Source: Thermoproteota archaeon
GTDB lineage: Archaea > Korarchaeota > Korarchaeia > Korarchaeales > Korarchaeaceae
Reading direction: 5' to 3'
Length of the DNA: 40,227 nucleotides
Assembly: GCA_027491735.1 (NCBI GenBank)
Contig: JAOZGP010000014.1
Coordinates: forward strand, 1-40,227
The translations under genes were made by a program, and so were the position numbers. Under the pieces are notes generated by a model. The model had not been told where the DNA came from and searched no databases. It was given only the letters and a program-made list of their open reading frames with translations. Positions within the stretch are counted from its first letter, which is position 1; each line of letters starts with the position of its first letter. Shown here in pieces: positions 23,220 to 29,391 of the stretch.

Positions 23220-23273
23220 ATGTTTAAGAAGCCTTCAAGTCTCCCTTTGTGTGACTGGATGGAGGGAGTGTTC

Positions 23274-23615
23274 ATGGTCAAGGTGAGAGTTGAGTCCTTG
23301 GAGAAGGACCCAGACTTCAGGCTCATCAAGGTCTCCCTGAAAAGCGAGGGAGGAGGTAAGATATATCTCGAGGTACCTGAAGGAGTTATTAAGGTTAAGG
23401 AGGGATCTAGGGGCGACCTCGCGCTTACCAGAGAAGTTCCCAAGGATAGAGGGGAGAACATCTTGGTGATGAGGGGTGTTGTGTACGAGAATGAGAAGAA
23501 AGCTAAGTCAGCTAAGATCTCCTTCTACGGGCTTTGGATGACAATAAAAGGAGAAGAGAAGCTCCCGAGGGAGCTAAAACCTGGAGATCAGGTATACCTC
23601 CTGCTGAGGTTTTAG
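23274..23615 (+). CDS. RNA polymerase subunit Rpo8 (RpoG)
   Basis: A small beta-barrel protein, 113 residues, whose end KISFYGLWMTIKGEEKLPRE followed by LKPGDQVYLLLRF matches the C-terminus of eukaryotic RPB8 (SFGGLLM-x-L-x-G and YLL) and its archaeal orthologues. Rpo8 is reported only from Thermoproteota and Korarchaeota, so it is a useful taxonomic marker here. I chose ATG 23274 (MVKVRVES), which has GGAGG eight bases upstream; earlier in-frame ATGs at 23259 and 23220 add residues without family likeness. It lies 54 nt after the UbiD-type gene and probably shares its transcript. Confidence 0.85.
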   Translation: MVKVRVESLEKDPDFRLIKVSLKSEGGGKIYLEVPEGVIKVKEGSRGDLALTREVPKDRGENILVMRGVVYENEKKAKSAKISFYGLWMTIKGEEKLPRELKPGDQVYLLLRF

Positions 23616-23694
23616 GTAAGTTTTCGACATCTCTCTGAGGGATGAATCATTTGGTTTAAATTAAGTTTATTTTTAGAAATATTATTTAGCTGGC
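23616..23694 (+). promoter_or_regulatory. A+T-rich promoter region of the TFB-like gene
   Basis: The gap between rpo8 and the next gene holds TTTAAATTAAGTTTATTTTT (about 23654-23673), a strong TATA-like stretch ending about 20-30 nt before the proposed TTG start at 23695. It suggests that the TFB-like and HerA-like genes begin a new transcript. Confidence 0.5.
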
Positions 23695-24420
23695 TTGTCC
23701 CTCAAGCAGCTGATGTACGAGGAGTATGCTGAGGAGGGTCTGGAGGAGGTCTCTCCATATCCGGTCGAGAACTCATATCCTTATCCTGTCAGAAGAAGAT
23801 CTCCCTGTATATTGGACCGCATACATGAAGGACTTCACGTATCCAGACCTCTCCTAGAGGAATCGAGGATGTTGGCCGATATCGTAAGAAGATCCCTTAG
23901 AATGGAGAGAGTGCCTCCTGGATTGAGCCTCGCATCTCTAGTTTACACTTCCAGGGAGAGAGGAGTGACCCTGACTGTGGACTCGGTCCTACGGGCATCT
24001 AGGCAGGCGGGCAGCAGGATAAAGCCCTCTTCCATAATGAAGTATTTGTTTATCATAGAAAAGATTGCCGGCAAGCATGACCCCATGGAGAAGATCCTGG
24101 CTTACGTGGATCACATCAGGATGTCCCTCCTCTCCGATGAGAAAGTACTCGAAAAGCTGAGAAATGAGTTTTCAAGACGAACTCCCCAGATTGTGATAAA
24201 CAGAGCCTCGATATTGGCGAGGAGGATGATCGTGCGAACAAAGAGGGAAAACAAAAAAGCTCTCCTAGGAAAGAACCCGCTTGTTTTGGCGGCTGTGGCT
24301 TTTTACAACGGATTGAGGTTTTTGGGATGCAGGAGCGTGACCCAAAGAGACCTGGCCCTCTCTATAGGCATTCATCCGACCACGATAAGCAGAAACAGAA
24401 GGTTGGTGATATCCCGTTGA
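23695..24420 (+). CDS. Divergent TFB-like protein with two cyclin folds, no zinc ribbon
   Basis: The protein is built like the core of TFB (TFIIB). A first cyclin repeat (about 57-125) has LASLVYTSRERGVTLTVDSV and a second (about 133-240) ends in GKNPLVLAAVAFYNGLRF, SVTQRDLALSIGIHPTTISR and NRRLV, the helix-turn-helix that reads BRE DNA in TFB. The N-terminal 50 residues are acidic and Tyr/Pro-rich (EEYAEEGLEEVSPYPVENSY) and have only one Cys, so the zinc ribbon and B-finger that touch RNA polymerase are missing. It could bind TBP-DNA and compete with TFB, or act elsewhere. The start is TTG 23695, or ATG 23713. The membrane ATPase gene follows after 139 nt. Confidence 0.7.
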   Translation: MSLKQLMYEEYAEEGLEEVSPYPVENSYPYPVRRRSPCILDRIHEGLHVSRPLLEESRMLADIVRRSLRMERVPPGLSLASLVYTSRERGVTLTVDSVLRASRQAGSRIKPSSIMKYLFIIEKIAGKHDPMEKILAYVDHIRMSLLSDEKVLEKLRNEFSRRTPQIVINRASILARRMIVRTKRENKKALLGKNPLVLAAVAFYNGLRFLGCRSVTQRDLALSIGIHPTTISRNRRLVISR

Positions 24421-24559
24421 AGGAGGAGCAGTCCATCTTCAGCGTTAAAGCGTTGGAAGAAAACCGATGCCTTAAAGGGCCCTCTCAAGACGATAACTCA
24501 GGAGATGAGGTCCTCAAAGATGGAGATAGATCGTCTTAATAAGATGTCGAGGTCTCCGG

Positions 24560-26215
24560 ATGAGGATCAGTGAGCGAGAAGATCTGTTCATCTTTCCTTT
24601 AATAGTTATCTATATATTAATCAGAATATGGAAAGGAGGCTTTCCGCAGATCCGTATAACCGGTCCGCTGGTCCTGTTCACAATCCTGCTAATAGTCACC
24701 AGCTCTGTTTTCGTGATCGTGAGGAGAATTTCGAGGCTTAGAACTGGAATACTTGAGATGTCAGACGGTGTACTCGTTGTTCCAGGTAAAGGCGCGAGGT
24801 TGGCGGTCCTGCCAGTGAGCATAACCCCCCTCAGGGAGGAAGCCGTGATAGATCTGGGGGCGGCCATGAGATACCTTTCAGACCTCGGTGTGAGTCTCTC
24901 CCTGATAACGAGCGCCTCTCCCTGCAGCTTTGGGGGGATCAGATCCTCCTATAAAGGAGCGTTGTTCAGGAGAGTTAAGGATAGGGACTTACATCTAGCT
25001 AGGGAATCCTTAATGAGCTCGTTTAAGATCCTTAAGAGAGTTCTTGGGGATGGGCTCTCCGTTGAAATTGCCAAGATGAACTCATCTCTCCTTGAAGAGC
25101 TCGTCAACACGATCCCTTCATCGACGATCGCCGGAAGATCCTTCACAGCTAGGATGTCCGTACCACGTGGAGCTGAGATAGGAGAGTCCACTGTGTGCCT
25201 GAGCGAGGGGACATGCATACCTCTCAGCGACCTTGTCGGCCATGTTCTGGTGACTGGTGCCACGGGATCCGGAAAAACCACCACTGCGAAGAGGATTTTA
25301 TATGAACTTTGGACTCTATGTGGAGTTCCCTTTATCGTGTTGGACTTCCACAACGAGTATGGAGATCTCATCGCGAAGGTTAACGGAGACGTCCTCACCA
25401 GGAAAGAGAGTAGCTACGATTACTCAATAAACATACTTCGAGGCATGAGCGAACCGGACAGCGAGGAGCTTCACTACTTTGTGGATGCCTTTAAGACGAT
25501 CATGGATCTAACTCCGGCTCAGGAGTTCATGCTGCTAACGGCGCTTGGAAGACTGAGAACTAGGATGACTCAGCTAGGAGGAGTTCCTTCCATGGAGGAG
25601 CTCTATGAGGAGATCGCTGAGATAGAAATTAAAACTGCCTCAGAGAAAGAGGCTAAATCGGCCCTTCTAAGAAAGATTTTCTTGCTCAAAGAGGAGCCGG
25701 TGTCATCCCTTATATCGCGCGATGGGGTAGGCCTTGCCCATGAGATAAGCTCCCCGGTGTCCATAGAGCTAGATGACGTCTCCACCGAGACAGGCAGGCT
25801 CCTCTACGTTCACTTCTTCCTGCGAGGAGTATACAGGATGTATAAATCTAAGGGATTTTCCAAGACTCCTAGAGTAGTTTTGGTCATAGAGGAGGCGGAT
25901 AAATGTCTGCCAGCTTTTAGGGAGGGGAGTGGACTGACCATGGGCGAGAAGCTCTTCTCTGAAATGAGAAAGTATGGAATATCGCTGGTATGCATAGCTC
26001 AGTCACCTAGCAAGGTTTCCCGCTACATTATCCAGAACACATCCGTCAAGGTCCTTCACAGAGCCGGAGAGCCCAGAGATGTCGAGTTCCTAAAAAATCT
26101 GACAGGTAGCAAGGGAAAGACGAACCTATTGTGGAGGCTGAAACCAGGGGAGTTCGTGCTAGTGTACGGTGACCGGATTTTGAGGGGGAGGACTAAACCT
26201 GTTTCATTTTCTTAG
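24560..26215 (+). CDS. Membrane-anchored HerA/FtsK-type ATPase (DUF87)
   Basis: Two membrane helices at about residues 9-26 and 35-55 tether a soluble ATPase. The HerA-FtsK signature is clear: HVLVTGATGSGKTTTAKRIL (Walker A at 233-241), PFIVLDFHNEYGDLI, and Walker B VVLVIEEADKCLP with the downstream ISLVCIAQSPSKVSRYIIQN (sensor region) and RAGEPRDVEFLKNLTG. HerA proteins pump or process DNA, often with NurA, which is absent here. With membrane anchors the protein could move DNA across or along the membrane, as in conjugation-like or VirB4-like systems, but no partner is visible. A short helix-rich region (about 95-185) lies between the anchor and the ATPase. The last 12 nt overlap the convergent kinase gene. 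Confidence 0.83.
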   Translation: MRISEREDLFIFPLIVIYILIRIWKGGFPQIRITGPLVLFTILLIVTSSVFVIVRRISRLRTGILEMSDGVLVVPGKGARLAVLPVSITPLREEAVIDLGAAMRYLSDLGVSLSLITSASPCSFGGIRSSYKGALFRRVKDRDLHLARESLMSSFKILKRVLGDGLSVEIAKMNSSLLEELVNTIPSSTIAGRSFTARMSVPRGAEIGESTVCLSEGTCIPLSDLVGHVLVTGATGSGKTTTAKRILYELWTLCGVPFIVLDFHNEYGDLIAKVNGDVLTRKESSYDYSINILRGMSEPDSEELHYFVDAFKTIMDLTPAQEFMLLTALGRLRTRMTQLGGVPSMEELYEEIAEIEIKTASEKEAKSALLRKIFLLKEEPVSSLISRDGVGLAHEISSPVSIELDDVSTETGRLLYVHFFLRGVYRMYKSKGFSKTPRVVLVIEEADKCLPAFREGSGLTMGEKLFSEMRKYGISLVCIAQSPSKVSRYIIQNTSVKVLHRAGEPRDVEFLKNLTGSKGKTNLLWRLKPGEFVLVYGDRILRGRTKPVSFS

Positions 26216-26776
26216 AATTTTTAGGATCTCCTCGAATATGGAGAACTCGGCGTCCTTGTCTCTAGGAAGAAAAACAGGCGGCCTGACTTTTCCATCTAGG
26301 ACAGATCGCACTAGATTCAGGGATTTATCTACAACAGAGGTATCTACTTCGACCACGAGATCCTCTCCAAAGGAGTTCAAGGCCTCTATCAGAGGGACAT
26401 CGAGGAGCTCGGCTTCTAGATTCTCTAGGATCTTTTGAGGAGGATACCCTCTCCTCTCCAGCCTAAAGAAGAGGTCCCTTACTGGACACCTAGTTATCAC
26501 GACTACCTGAACAGGGAGCCCCTCCAGAAGCGATGGAGAGATTGACTCGACGACCAGACGGTCCAAGGGGAGCCTCCTTAGCTCGTTTAGAAGAGCTTCA
26601 TCGTTCACTATCAGGGAGCCCCTCCGCTCATCAAAGCCAGAGGAGAGGGTGCTTCTTTTTTCTTGAACGAGACTCGTGATGGAGAGATAGTCCATGTTTA
26701 ACTCTTTGGATAAGAGACGAGCAAAGCAGGTCTTTCCACTACCGGGGACGCCGGACACCACAATCATACTTCTCAT
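26204..26776 (-). CDS. Fap7/AK6-type adenylate kinase-like protein
   Basis: A small P-loop NMP kinase with MIVVSGVPGSGKTCFARLLS at the start (P-loop at residues 9-16), a core strand LDRLVVESISPSL and the lid-like RCPVRDLFFRLERRGYPPQK followed by ILENLEAEL, the characteristic Fap7/hCINAP signature. In archaea and eukaryotes it binds uS11 (Rps14) and works in late 40S/30S subunit assembly, with weak adenylate kinase activity. At 190 residues it is normal length. It lies alone, convergent to the HerA-like gene and divergent from tRNA-Glu. Confidence 0.88.
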   Translation of the reverse strand: MRSMIVVSGVPGSGKTCFARLLSKELNMDYLSITSLVQEKRSTLSSGFDERRGSLIVNDEALLNELRRLPLDRLVVESISPSLLEGLPVQVVVITRCPVRDLFFRLERRGYPPQKILENLEAELLDVPLIEALNSFGEDLVVEVDTSVVDKSLNLVRSVLDGKVRPPVFLPRDKDAEFSIFEEILKILRK

Positions 26777-27351: not shown

Positions 27352-27717
27352 TTAATAGCCGAAAAACGCCAGGGGATTAAACTTGAACGTGTATAGAAGA
27401 ACGTAGGCTAGAGCAATTGCTAGGACAGCCGACGTTATGGTCCTCAGGAACTGCCTGTGATATACAGGGATTACGGTGAAGAGACCTTGCACGAGCGCCA
27501 AGAACATAAGGAAGTTCCGCATGGCTTCTGAGGCAGGCACCATCCACATATTGGAGACCCAGACGCTGAAAGTTGCTATCAAAAGAGATATTGGGAAGGT
27601 GAACGCTGTGAAGATAAGCCCAAATATTATCTCCACCACTACAGCCTTGAAGGAGAAGGGAATCCTCACTCTGCGCCTTTTTCGACCGTAGATCGTGGGG
27701 CTTTTCAGCATCCTCAA
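27352..27717 (-). CDS. Small membrane protein
   Basis: I do not recognise this 121-residue protein. It has three strongly hydrophobic helices (about 24-50, 65-86, 92-112) after a basic N-terminus with KSPTIYGRKRRRVRIPFSF, so the tail before helix 1 is likely cytoplasmic. A Trp-rich loop (SVWVSNMWMVPASEAMRN) joins helices 1 and 2. It overlaps the end of the UMP kinase gene by 4 nt and is probably co-transcribed. No signature motif is seen. Confidence 0.6.
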   Translation of the reverse strand: MRMLKSPTIYGRKRRRVRIPFSFKAVVVEIIFGLIFTAFTFPISLLIATFSVWVSNMWMVPASEAMRNFLMFLALVQGLFTVIPVYHRQFLRTITSAVLAIALAYVLLYTFKFNPLAFFGY

Positions 27718-28400
27718 CTCACCTTCACCAAGGTACCGACCTTCTCTGCCCTCAGGATCCTAAATATGTTTTCGGGTGAAAAGGCTGTGGTCACCACGAC
27801 AGGGATCTTAGATCTCCTCACAATCCTCAGAGCCACTAGGTCGAAGAGCTCGTACTTACCTGGCTCGAATTTCTGTGATGAAACCAGTTTCTCCAGTATA
27901 TCCACTGTTATCTCATCATATCTGATGGCGCTGGAGTTCTTATTTGGATCGTCGGAGTAGATCGCATCCGCTCCGGTCATCTTGATGAGGAGCTGAGCGC
28001 GAACGTACTCAGCAATGACTGCTGCCACGGCGTCAGTGGATTGACCAGCCACCATCCCTCCAGCTATCACTAGATTATGGGACGACAGGGCCGAAACCAC
28101 CTCCTGATAGGATCGAGGGATTCGAGGATACGCTACGTCAGTAAGCCCAGAGACTAAAAGCAAAGCGTTTATTCTGGTGGCAGCGATGCCTAAATCGTCC
28201 AATAAACTGTTTGGGGCTTTTAAGTTGGAGGCCAACTCTATATACCTTCTAGCGATCCTCCCTCCACCGGCTACGACAACCACTTTGTTAGAACGGGAGA
28301 CCTCCCTTAGTACGTTTATGTATCTGTCTATCAGAGAGGCATCTCCCTTCTCAACAGCCTCGTTGAAGACAATTCCTCCCAGGAGTATAACCAGCCTCAT
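27714..28400 (-). CDS. pyrH: Uridylate (UMP) kinase
   Basis: This amino-acid-kinase-fold enzyme phosphorylates UMP with ATP in pyrimidine synthesis. Motifs in order: the glycine-rich start VILLGGIVFNEAVEK, KVVVVAGGGRIARRYIELA, LLDDLGIAATRINALLL, VIAGGMVAGQSTDAVAAVIA, LLIKMTGADAIYSDDPNKN, and the C-terminal DLVALRIVRRSKIPVVV. It is the archaeal type without the bacterial GTP-control features. The usual Lys of the K-x-GGS start is replaced by LLGG here, which is noticeable but not rare in this family. Length 228. Confidence 0.93.
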   Translation of the reverse strand: MRLVILLGGIVFNEAVEKGDASLIDRYINVLREVSRSNKVVVVAGGGRIARRYIELASNLKAPNSLLDDLGIAATRINALLLVSGLTDVAYPRIPRSYQEVVSALSSHNLVIAGGMVAGQSTDAVAAVIAEYVRAQLLIKMTGADAIYSDDPNKNSSAIRYDEITVDILEKLVSSQKFEPGKYELFDLVALRIVRRSKIPVVVTTAFSPENIFRILRAEKVGTLVKVS

Positions 28401-28443
28401 CGAGAACAGTTCAGATAACTAAAATTTAACTGTTTGAATGTGC

Positions 28444-29391
28444 TTAATAGAACCTCATGGGGGACTCAAGCCTTGAGAGCAGAACCACCTTGCTCTCCGG
28501 CTGTTCATCCAATATTACATATCCAGTCATCTCAGCGAGCTCCCTGGCGAACCTTCTGACATCCGAGTGCATTGGTGAGTTCGCCCTCGAAAGCCTCCTC
28601 CTGGAGTAGCCCACATAACTGTACCCCTTCGGCTCCACGTAGGTGGGCTCGAACCTGCGGATTAGGGGAGCAAATTCCTGAGCTAGGTGTGAGTTCACTC
28701 CCTTTATCACAGTTATCCTCATGACCACCGGAATTGAAAGGGAGTTCGTTAGGGACAACGTCTCTAAAACCCTCTCCCAAGCTCTTCTTACCATAGGCCT
28801 GGCTATCCTATTGAAGACTGTCTTGTTTGGTGCATTTACTGTGATGTACAGCTGAGTTGGTTCACAGGATATGCTCTCCAGCCTCTCTGGCAGCGAGCCG
28901 TTTGTCACGATGAAGGTGGTCATGCCCCGGTTCTTGTATTCCCTCACGAGCTCCCCTATTTTGGGGTATAGCATCGGCTCCCCTGTCAGCGAGATGGCAG
29001 CATGCTTGGGGTCTTCTGCCTCCCTCAGCCAATCACCGCTGAACACCTCCACACCCTTGTATCCCTGAATTATAGTCTTCTGAATCCTTATGCTCTCGTC
29101 AACTATCTCCCGAGGTTCATCCCAGTCTAGGTCCTCGGGTGGTATCTCCTGCCACCCCATCTCCGGAGGAAGGTCACTCGCGTTTATCCTCCAGCAGTGG
29201 AGACATTGAAAGTTGCAGTAAGCTGCTGTAGGGGTCATCTGTATGCACCTCCAGCTGGGTATGCCGAAGAACTTATGTTTATAGCAGGTCTTACCATGCA
29301 TGATTGCCTTCCTGAACCAGTAGCAGGGCTTCAGGGCAGAGTGGTTCAATATGATCTTATAGCCCTGTTTCCTCATCAGGGCTTTGACCAC
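28444..29391 (-). CDS. taw1: 4-demethylwyosine synthase (Taw1/TYW1), radical SAM
   Basis: The enzyme builds the tricyclic base of wyosine at G37 of tRNA-Phe from pyruvate. The radical SAM cluster motif is AYCNFQCLHCWR (Cys59, Cys63, Cys66). Three further cysteines at 23, 36 and 49 have the same 13-residue spacing as the second [4Fe-4S] cluster ligands in Pyrococcus Taw1. Other family blocks: LTGEPMLYPKIGELVREY, TFIVTNGSLPERL, YITVNAPNKTVFNRIARP and EPKGYSYVGYSRRRL. At 315 residues the archaeal type lacks the flavodoxin domain. The start is GTG 29391; ATG 29376 (MRKQGYK) is possible. Confidence 0.96.
   Translation of the reverse strand: MVKALMRKQGYKIILNHSALKPCYWFRKAIMHGKTCYKHKFFGIPSWRCIQMTPTAAYCNFQCLHCWRINASDLPPEMGWQEIPPEDLDWDEPREIVDESIRIQKTIIQGYKGVEVFSGDWLREAEDPKHAAISLTGEPMLYPKIGELVREYKNRGMTTFIVTNGSLPERLESISCEPTQLYITVNAPNKTVFNRIARPMVRRAWERVLETLSLTNSLSIPVVMRITVIKGVNSHLAQEFAPLIRRFEPTYVEPKGYSYVGYSRRRLSRANSPMHSDVRRFARELAEMTGYVILDEQPESKVVLLSRLESPMRFY

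Follow-up and report, generated by a model that had tools for sequence, protein, structure and literature searches.

A TFB paralogue beside a CedD-like membrane ATPase in Korarchaeia: a candidate DNA-exchange locus

What might hold a relative of the archaeal transcription factor TFB that has no zinc ribbon next to a DNA-translocating ATPase that appears to be anchored in the membrane? The question is raised by two neighboring genes in a stretch of 40,227 nucleotides from a Thermoproteota archaeon of the Korarchaeia (this whole stretch is called the window here). We refer to the TFB paralogue as TFBx, and consider below how widely the two genes occur together, what each might encode and where else in the TACK archaea the same neighborhood can be recognized.

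The gene pair and its conservation in Korarchaeia

The two genes lie behind rpoG, which encodes the RNA polymerase subunit G (Rpb8/Rpo8 homologue; 23220..23615, + strand; PF16992, E 5e-9, and PF03870, E 6e-6) and is the first gene of a conserved trio, rpoG-TFBx-ATPase. Both reading frames of the pair were confirmed in the ORF list, at 23695-24420 for TFBx, a TFB paralogue with two cyclin repeats (+; TTG start, 241 aa, with an alternative start at 23713), and at 24560-26215 for a CedD-like, membrane-anchored DNA-translocating ATPase of the HerA/VirB4 family (+; ATG start, 551 aa). The convergent gene that follows encodes an adenylate-kinase-like NTPase (26204..26776, -; AAA_18, E 1e-17); it is a conserved flank, present too at the pilus/CedD loci of other TACK archaea, and probably belongs to the synteny of the locus and not to its mechanism. 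Part of the gap between TFBx and the ATPase gene is filled by a TTG-started frame of ~40 codons (24418-24540, +), which is probably due to chance. On the opposite strand, a block at 27352-29391 with genes for a small multi-helix membrane protein, an amino-acid-kinase-family protein and a radical-SAM TYW1-like protein has been conserved next to the pair in almost all Korarchaeia. A second, canonical TFB is encoded elsewhere in the same genome.

The initial annotation had proposed that the two genes belong together, possibly in a DNA-transfer system, with the reservation that the pair might not be conserved. A search for the adjacent pair in 26 Korarchaeia genomes removes the reservation and lends support to the proposal: in each of the 24 genomes that allow the comparison the two genes lie side by side and point the same way (in the other two a contig ends inside the pair), which is far beyond chance, and rpoG lies directly upstream of TFBx in 23 of the 24 that can be read at this place. 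In most genomes 28 to 295 bp separate the two genes. In L070, L072, L074, L075 and L086 they overlap by 4-11 bp, and in L083 by a longer distance, probably from the choice of start codon. Such gaps and overlaps fit one transcriptional unit. No T2SSE or TadC marker was found near the pair in any korarchaeal neighborhood examined; the genome encodes T2SSE-family ATPases at other places, and two of these have TadC- or pilin-like neighbors as judged by eye.

TFBx: fold, zinc ribbon and start

Scanned as a single sequence against Pfam (TFIIB model) and NCBIfam, TFBx gave no TFIIB match, and a family alignment was needed to recognize it: 19 of the 20 family members match PF00382, and a search of the PDB with the family profile brings up human TFIIB (E 6e-22). 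The AlphaFold2 model (mean pLDDT 86) is wholly helical from residue 39 onward, and a PDB fold search with this model returned TFIIB cores as the top matches (E 2e-4), at low TM-scores (0.3-0.4) that probably reflect a different orientation of the two lobes. Like canonical TFB and TFIIB, TFBx has two cyclin repeats with a C-terminal helix-turn-helix (HTH), which the model and the alignment place at residues 217-233 (24343..24393, +).

Nothing before residue 37 resembles a zinc ribbon, and residues 1-34 are mostly at pLDDT <50 in the AlphaFold2 model. CxxC was sought in the three forward frames of 23561-23900 and did not occur, and the B-reader and linker of canonical TFB/TFIIB are absent from the window protein. 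A frameshifted or mis-started ribbon was considered and rejected, as the upstream forward frames lack CxxC and rpoG is complete. The original description of a TFB-like double cyclin fold that carries the TFIIB HTH and neither ribbon nor B-finger is thus borne out by the profiles, the AlphaFold2 model and the CxxC scan.

The ribbon (CxxC...CxxC) is kept in 12 of 20 aligned korarchaeal TFBx proteins, the two most distant families included, and both relatives from the same genus as the window genome retain it. On the TFB tree its presence implies at least four changes within the Korarchaeia, a count that alone gives no direction. The missing ribbon is a lineage-specific loss and not a founding feature of TFBx. 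The ribbon-bearing korarchaeal proteins likewise have no reader and no linker: ~23 residues lie between their ribbon and core, where canonical TFB has 89 and the pilus-locus relatives described below have 68. TFB-family proteins with no recognizable Cys ribbon were also noticed outside the Korarchaeia, at L134:1314-2126 (Nitrososphaerota) and L331:579-1289 (G044, Desulfurococcaceae), and ribbon loss may therefore extend beyond this class.

The HTH differs among these proteins at two positions, which we take to be BRE contacts by way of V283 and R286 of human TFIIB. V and R occupy them in 31 of 31 canonical TFBs; in 21 TFBx proteins from pilus loci they are Y or F (C in one protein) and R, whereas korarchaeal TFBx mostly has S or T and in general lacks the R. 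The window TFBx has T and S at these positions, not V and R.

The TFB tree groups the canonical TFBs, korarchaeal ones included, in a clade (98/86) that leaves the korarchaeal and pilus-locus TFBx proteins outside. A single clade of all TFBx is not rejected (p-AU 0.445), although the tree contains long branches and sets two korarchaeal members apart. The profile of korarchaeal TFBx matches that of the pilus-locus proteins at 8e-37, versus 1.6e-26 for canonical TFB, and the pilus-locus profile is likewise closer to korarchaeal TFBx than to canonical TFB. The profile of TFB3, the paralogue known from Sulfolobales, matches canonical TFB best and not TFBx; the link between TFB3 and TFBx is for this reason one of position alone. 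Orthology of TFBx and TFB3 by sequence found no support in the profile comparison and was rejected.

A putative TFBx promoter, the BRE/TATA-like AGAAATATTATTT (23674..23712, +), can be read in the sequence. An in-frame ATG lies at 23713, ~30 nt past it, and TFBx may therefore truly start there, as a protein of 235 aa whose message would likely be leaderless. The rpoG-TFBx gap of the aligned relatives contains a conserved GAAA...TTAATATT element. Within the korarchaeal genus g4 (L063, L066-L081), ATGAAA(A/C)TTTT occurs ~20 nt upstream of this BRE/TATA-like stretch, a conserved promoter-like element that is a possible operator for TFBx. The Sulfolobus UV motif AnTTTC, counted together with its reverse complement, appears 46 times upstream of TFBx genes against 16 expected; it is also raised upstream of rpoG (15 versus 7.4 expected) and not upstream of the ATPase genes. 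We have set this excess aside as evidence because the species are related, the BRE itself may contain GAAAnT and the rpoG upstreams are raised too.

The ATPase and the same block in other TACK archaea

The second protein matches DUF87 (Pfam, E 1.8e-15) and begins with two hydrophobic helices, which are followed by a mixed domain and then by an ATPase core of the HerA/VirB4 kind. The membrane helices, predicted from the AlphaFold2 model and the hydrophobic sequence, comprise residues 5-25 (24572..24634, +) and 35-60 (24662..24739, +). Alignment places the Walker A motif GATGSGKTTT at residues 233-242 (25256..25285, +), where G233, T235, G236, G238, K239 and T241 are invariant among 18 relatives; the Walker B region lies at residues 436-446 (25865..25897, +), its EE at 444-445 (E444, E445) being invariant, as are an RK pair and a Q in the family. 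The DUF87 match, the invariant motifs and the model agree with the early assignment of the protein to the HerA superfamily, with two membrane helices.

For the window ATPase and four relatives the best NCBIfam match is CedD (E 6e-42 to 1e-53), above HerA and CedB. The score of the window protein against the CedD model NF053655 is 144 bits (E 6e-42), which does not reach the equivalog cut-off of 600 bits, a value passed by the Sulfolobales alone. In a tree of 108 ATPase domains, made by a quick method, the CedD-like proteins of Korarchaeia, pilus clusters, Desulfurococcales and Sulfolobales form one group with moderate support (SH-aLRT 85), to which neither CedB nor canonical HerA, korarchaeal HerA included, belongs. 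By group placement and synteny the ATPase is most likely of the CedD type.

Other identities were considered and rejected: CedB because it has its own branch of the tree, and canonical HerA because the HAS barrel (PF09378) is not matched and no NurA gene adjoins. No CedB above the cut-off was found in the 26 Korarchaeia genomes. The HerA of Korarchaeia is a distinct protein that has the HAS barrel and, in L058, adjoins NurA and a metallophosphatase. The initial annotation had remarked on the missing NurA, and indeed none lies beside the ATPase, but this means little: its absence is to be expected, since the ATPase is not HerA and a HAS-barrel HerA with NurA exists elsewhere in a relative. In some Desulfurococcales (L217:8934-10333, L218:9812-11238) the CedD ATPase is ~350 aa long and is preceded by an ORF of 114-116 aa after rpoG, which looks like a split-off N-terminal domain, that is, a split CedD.

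Beyond the Korarchaeia, the nearest relatives of the ATPase come from Brockarchaeota, Methanomethylicota, Nitrososphaeria and others, and lie in one recurring cluster. Its first part consists of an Lsm-like gene, a TFB paralogue, pilin-like genes, a T2SSE secretion ATPase and TadC-like genes; then follow a small pilin-like gene, the CedD-like ATPase, a convergent kinase and often a thermosome gene (the pilin and TadC names come from sequence reading and local profiles, not from Pfam). The TFB paralogue is present in 21 of 26 such pilus/CedD loci, and in the other five the sequence stops short of its expected place; rpoG lies within the cluster in L234 and L235. In all six Sulfolobales genomes compared, the same block consists of TGT, Lsm, rpoG, proteasome subunit, HisS, TFB3, thermosome and CedD, with local rearrangement, in which TFB3 and CedD are two genes apart each time; this agrees with the published numbering of cedD as SiRe_1715, tfb3 as SiRe_1717 and HisS as SiRe_1719 (PMC11868833, PMC10470591). 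In one Desulfurococcaceae genome, 10 bp separate a TFB3-like gene from the CedD gene that follows it, with rpoG not nearby; at most other Desulfurococcales-type loci CedD is close to rpoG and a TFB gene is missing. With this TACK block the Korarchaeia have in common the kinase and, in L082 and L086, the Lsm gene, and the pair is therefore read as the same locus without its pilus genes. An undescribed device for DNA positioning or segregation, as first suggested for the pair, finds no support, since the ATPase falls in the CedD group and the locus matches tfb3/cedD of Sulfolobales in position.

Competing readings and known systems

The reading on which about half of our confidence rests is that the pair represents the Korarchaeia version of an ancient DNA-exchange (Ced-type) locus of the TACK archaea, with a TFB-family regulator of its own and with the pilus genes absent. 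The ATPase would assemble as a ring beneath the membrane and use ATP to drive DNA through a VirB6-like channel whose gene would lie at another place, in line with the proposal for CedB and CedD of Sulfolobales. TFBx might bind TBP-promoter complexes at its own promoters through the altered BRE helix and, in the way that TFB3 acts on ced and ups, control in trans how strongly the ATPase and the pilus or channel genes are expressed. Lacking ribbon, reader and linker, the window TFBx would not recruit the polymerase in the usual way and should act together with canonical TFB, which is the simplest reading of its action. Several observations weigh against the Ced-type reading: the ATPase scores 144 bits where the CedD cut-off is 600, and the support for its group is moderate in a tree of the quick kind; CedB exceeds its cut-off in none of the 26 Korarchaeia, and no pilus genes adjoin the pair; TFB3 is closer to canonical TFB than to TFBx and keeps the ribbon that the window TFBx has lost; and in most Desulfurococcales CedD lies near rpoG with no TFB gene at the locus.

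This last observation would be accommodated if synteny were all that is conserved, a reading that we consider rather unlikely. The rpoG block (TGT, Lsm, rpoG, thermosome, kinase) would then merely have stayed together, TFBx and RpoG would together take part in general transcription or in the processing of RNA, and the CedD-like ATPase, with a DNA-transfer role of its own, would be a bystander. The block is indeed conserved along with housekeeping genes, and the rpoG-TFB neighborhood of a korarchaeote was noted in 2007 and interpreted as cooperation with RpoG (PMC2234397). Yet the Korarchaeia have lost most of the block and retained the trio, TFBx and ATPase genes overlap in several genera, and the Desulfurococcaceae gene placed 10 bp before CedD has no rpoG nearby. 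The DNA-exchange module might also be held by TFBx as a repressor or place-holder, which would occupy TBP-promoter DNA and block canonical TFB until displaced by a signal. A protein with both cyclin repeats and the HTH and with no ribbon, reader or linker might suit such a role, which we nevertheless regard as unlikely: the known relative TFB3 is an activator in trans (PMC7289017), most relatives keep a ribbon that a pure repressor would not need, and the BRE contacts are altered.

More improbable is a membrane-tethered FtsK/HerA-like pump for segregation or division, with TFBx unrelated or a DNA-binding partner for positioning; the membrane anchor and the DNA-pump fold would fit it, but the ATPase groups with CedD and with pilus-linked ATPases, not with FtsK or HerA. 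An anti-phage or mobile-element HerA system has very little probability. PADLOC models for HerA and mad8 do match the ATPase (E 1e-20 to 6e-4), yet these matches fall in the common ATPase core, for which reason a defense-island reading was rejected; no nuclease or SIR2 partner lies beside the ATPase, and the chromosomal place is fixed throughout the class, unlike that of islands.

Returning to the Ced-type reading, a fuller history can be offered tentatively, as a possibility that we hold to be well short of probable. An ancestral TACK locus would have joined a TFB paralogue to a pilus-plus-CedD machine; the Korarchaeia would have reduced it to a regulator-pump pair and repeatedly discarded the ribbon, and TFBx would have become a TBP-directed promoter marker, active only by way of canonical TFB and in control of DNA exchange. 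To our knowledge, no characterized TFB has this ribbon-less promoter-marker design. If these proposals are true, Ced-type DNA exchange extends to the Korarchaeia, the TFB-paralogue control known from Sulfolobales goes back to a common ancestral gene order, and the origin of stress-induced DNA exchange in archaea becomes testable. The repeated ribbon losses are a natural experiment on TFIIB-family factors that do not recruit the polymerase themselves. In the open-access literature that we searched, we found no report of a TFB-CedD linkage, of a block in common with tfb3/cedD or of repeated ribbon loss.

Comparison with known systems brings out what the pair shares with each of them. With canonical HerA (HerA-NurA) the window ATPase has the DUF87/HerA core in common; it differs by its membrane anchor, its separate branch and the lack of a HAS barrel and of a NurA neighbor. 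TFIIB homologues have been described in archaeal type IV pilus loci (arCOG01981, arCOG05559), some with Rpb8 (Makarova 2016, PMC4858521), and these resemble TFBx as TFB paralogues tied to a secretion or DNA-pump locus, with a close profile match (E 8e-37), whereas the korarchaeal pair has no adjoining pilus genes and korarchaeal TFBx no reader or linker. TFB3 of Sulfolobales (SiRe_1717) is induced by DNA damage, is a reported co-regulator of the ced, ups and herA operons (PMC9905601, PMC10470591) and reportedly works as an activator in trans with canonical TFB (PMC7289017). Like TFBx it is a paralogue and not the general TFB, and its gene is a neighbor of CedD within the rpoG block; it keeps the ribbon and has no recognizable second cyclin repeat, the reverse of the window TFBx. 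DNA import in Saccharolobus requires CedD (SiRe_1715; NF053655), which is UV-induced (PMC11868833); the window ATPase differs in that it adjoins a full double-cyclin TFB paralogue, stays at 144 bits against the cut-off of 600 and belongs to a class with no CedB over the cut-off. Common to both are the membrane anchor, the N-terminal domain and the C-terminal HerA/VirB4-type ATPase (architecture as in PMC11868833), together with the same group in the tree, the best family match and the same chromosomal block.
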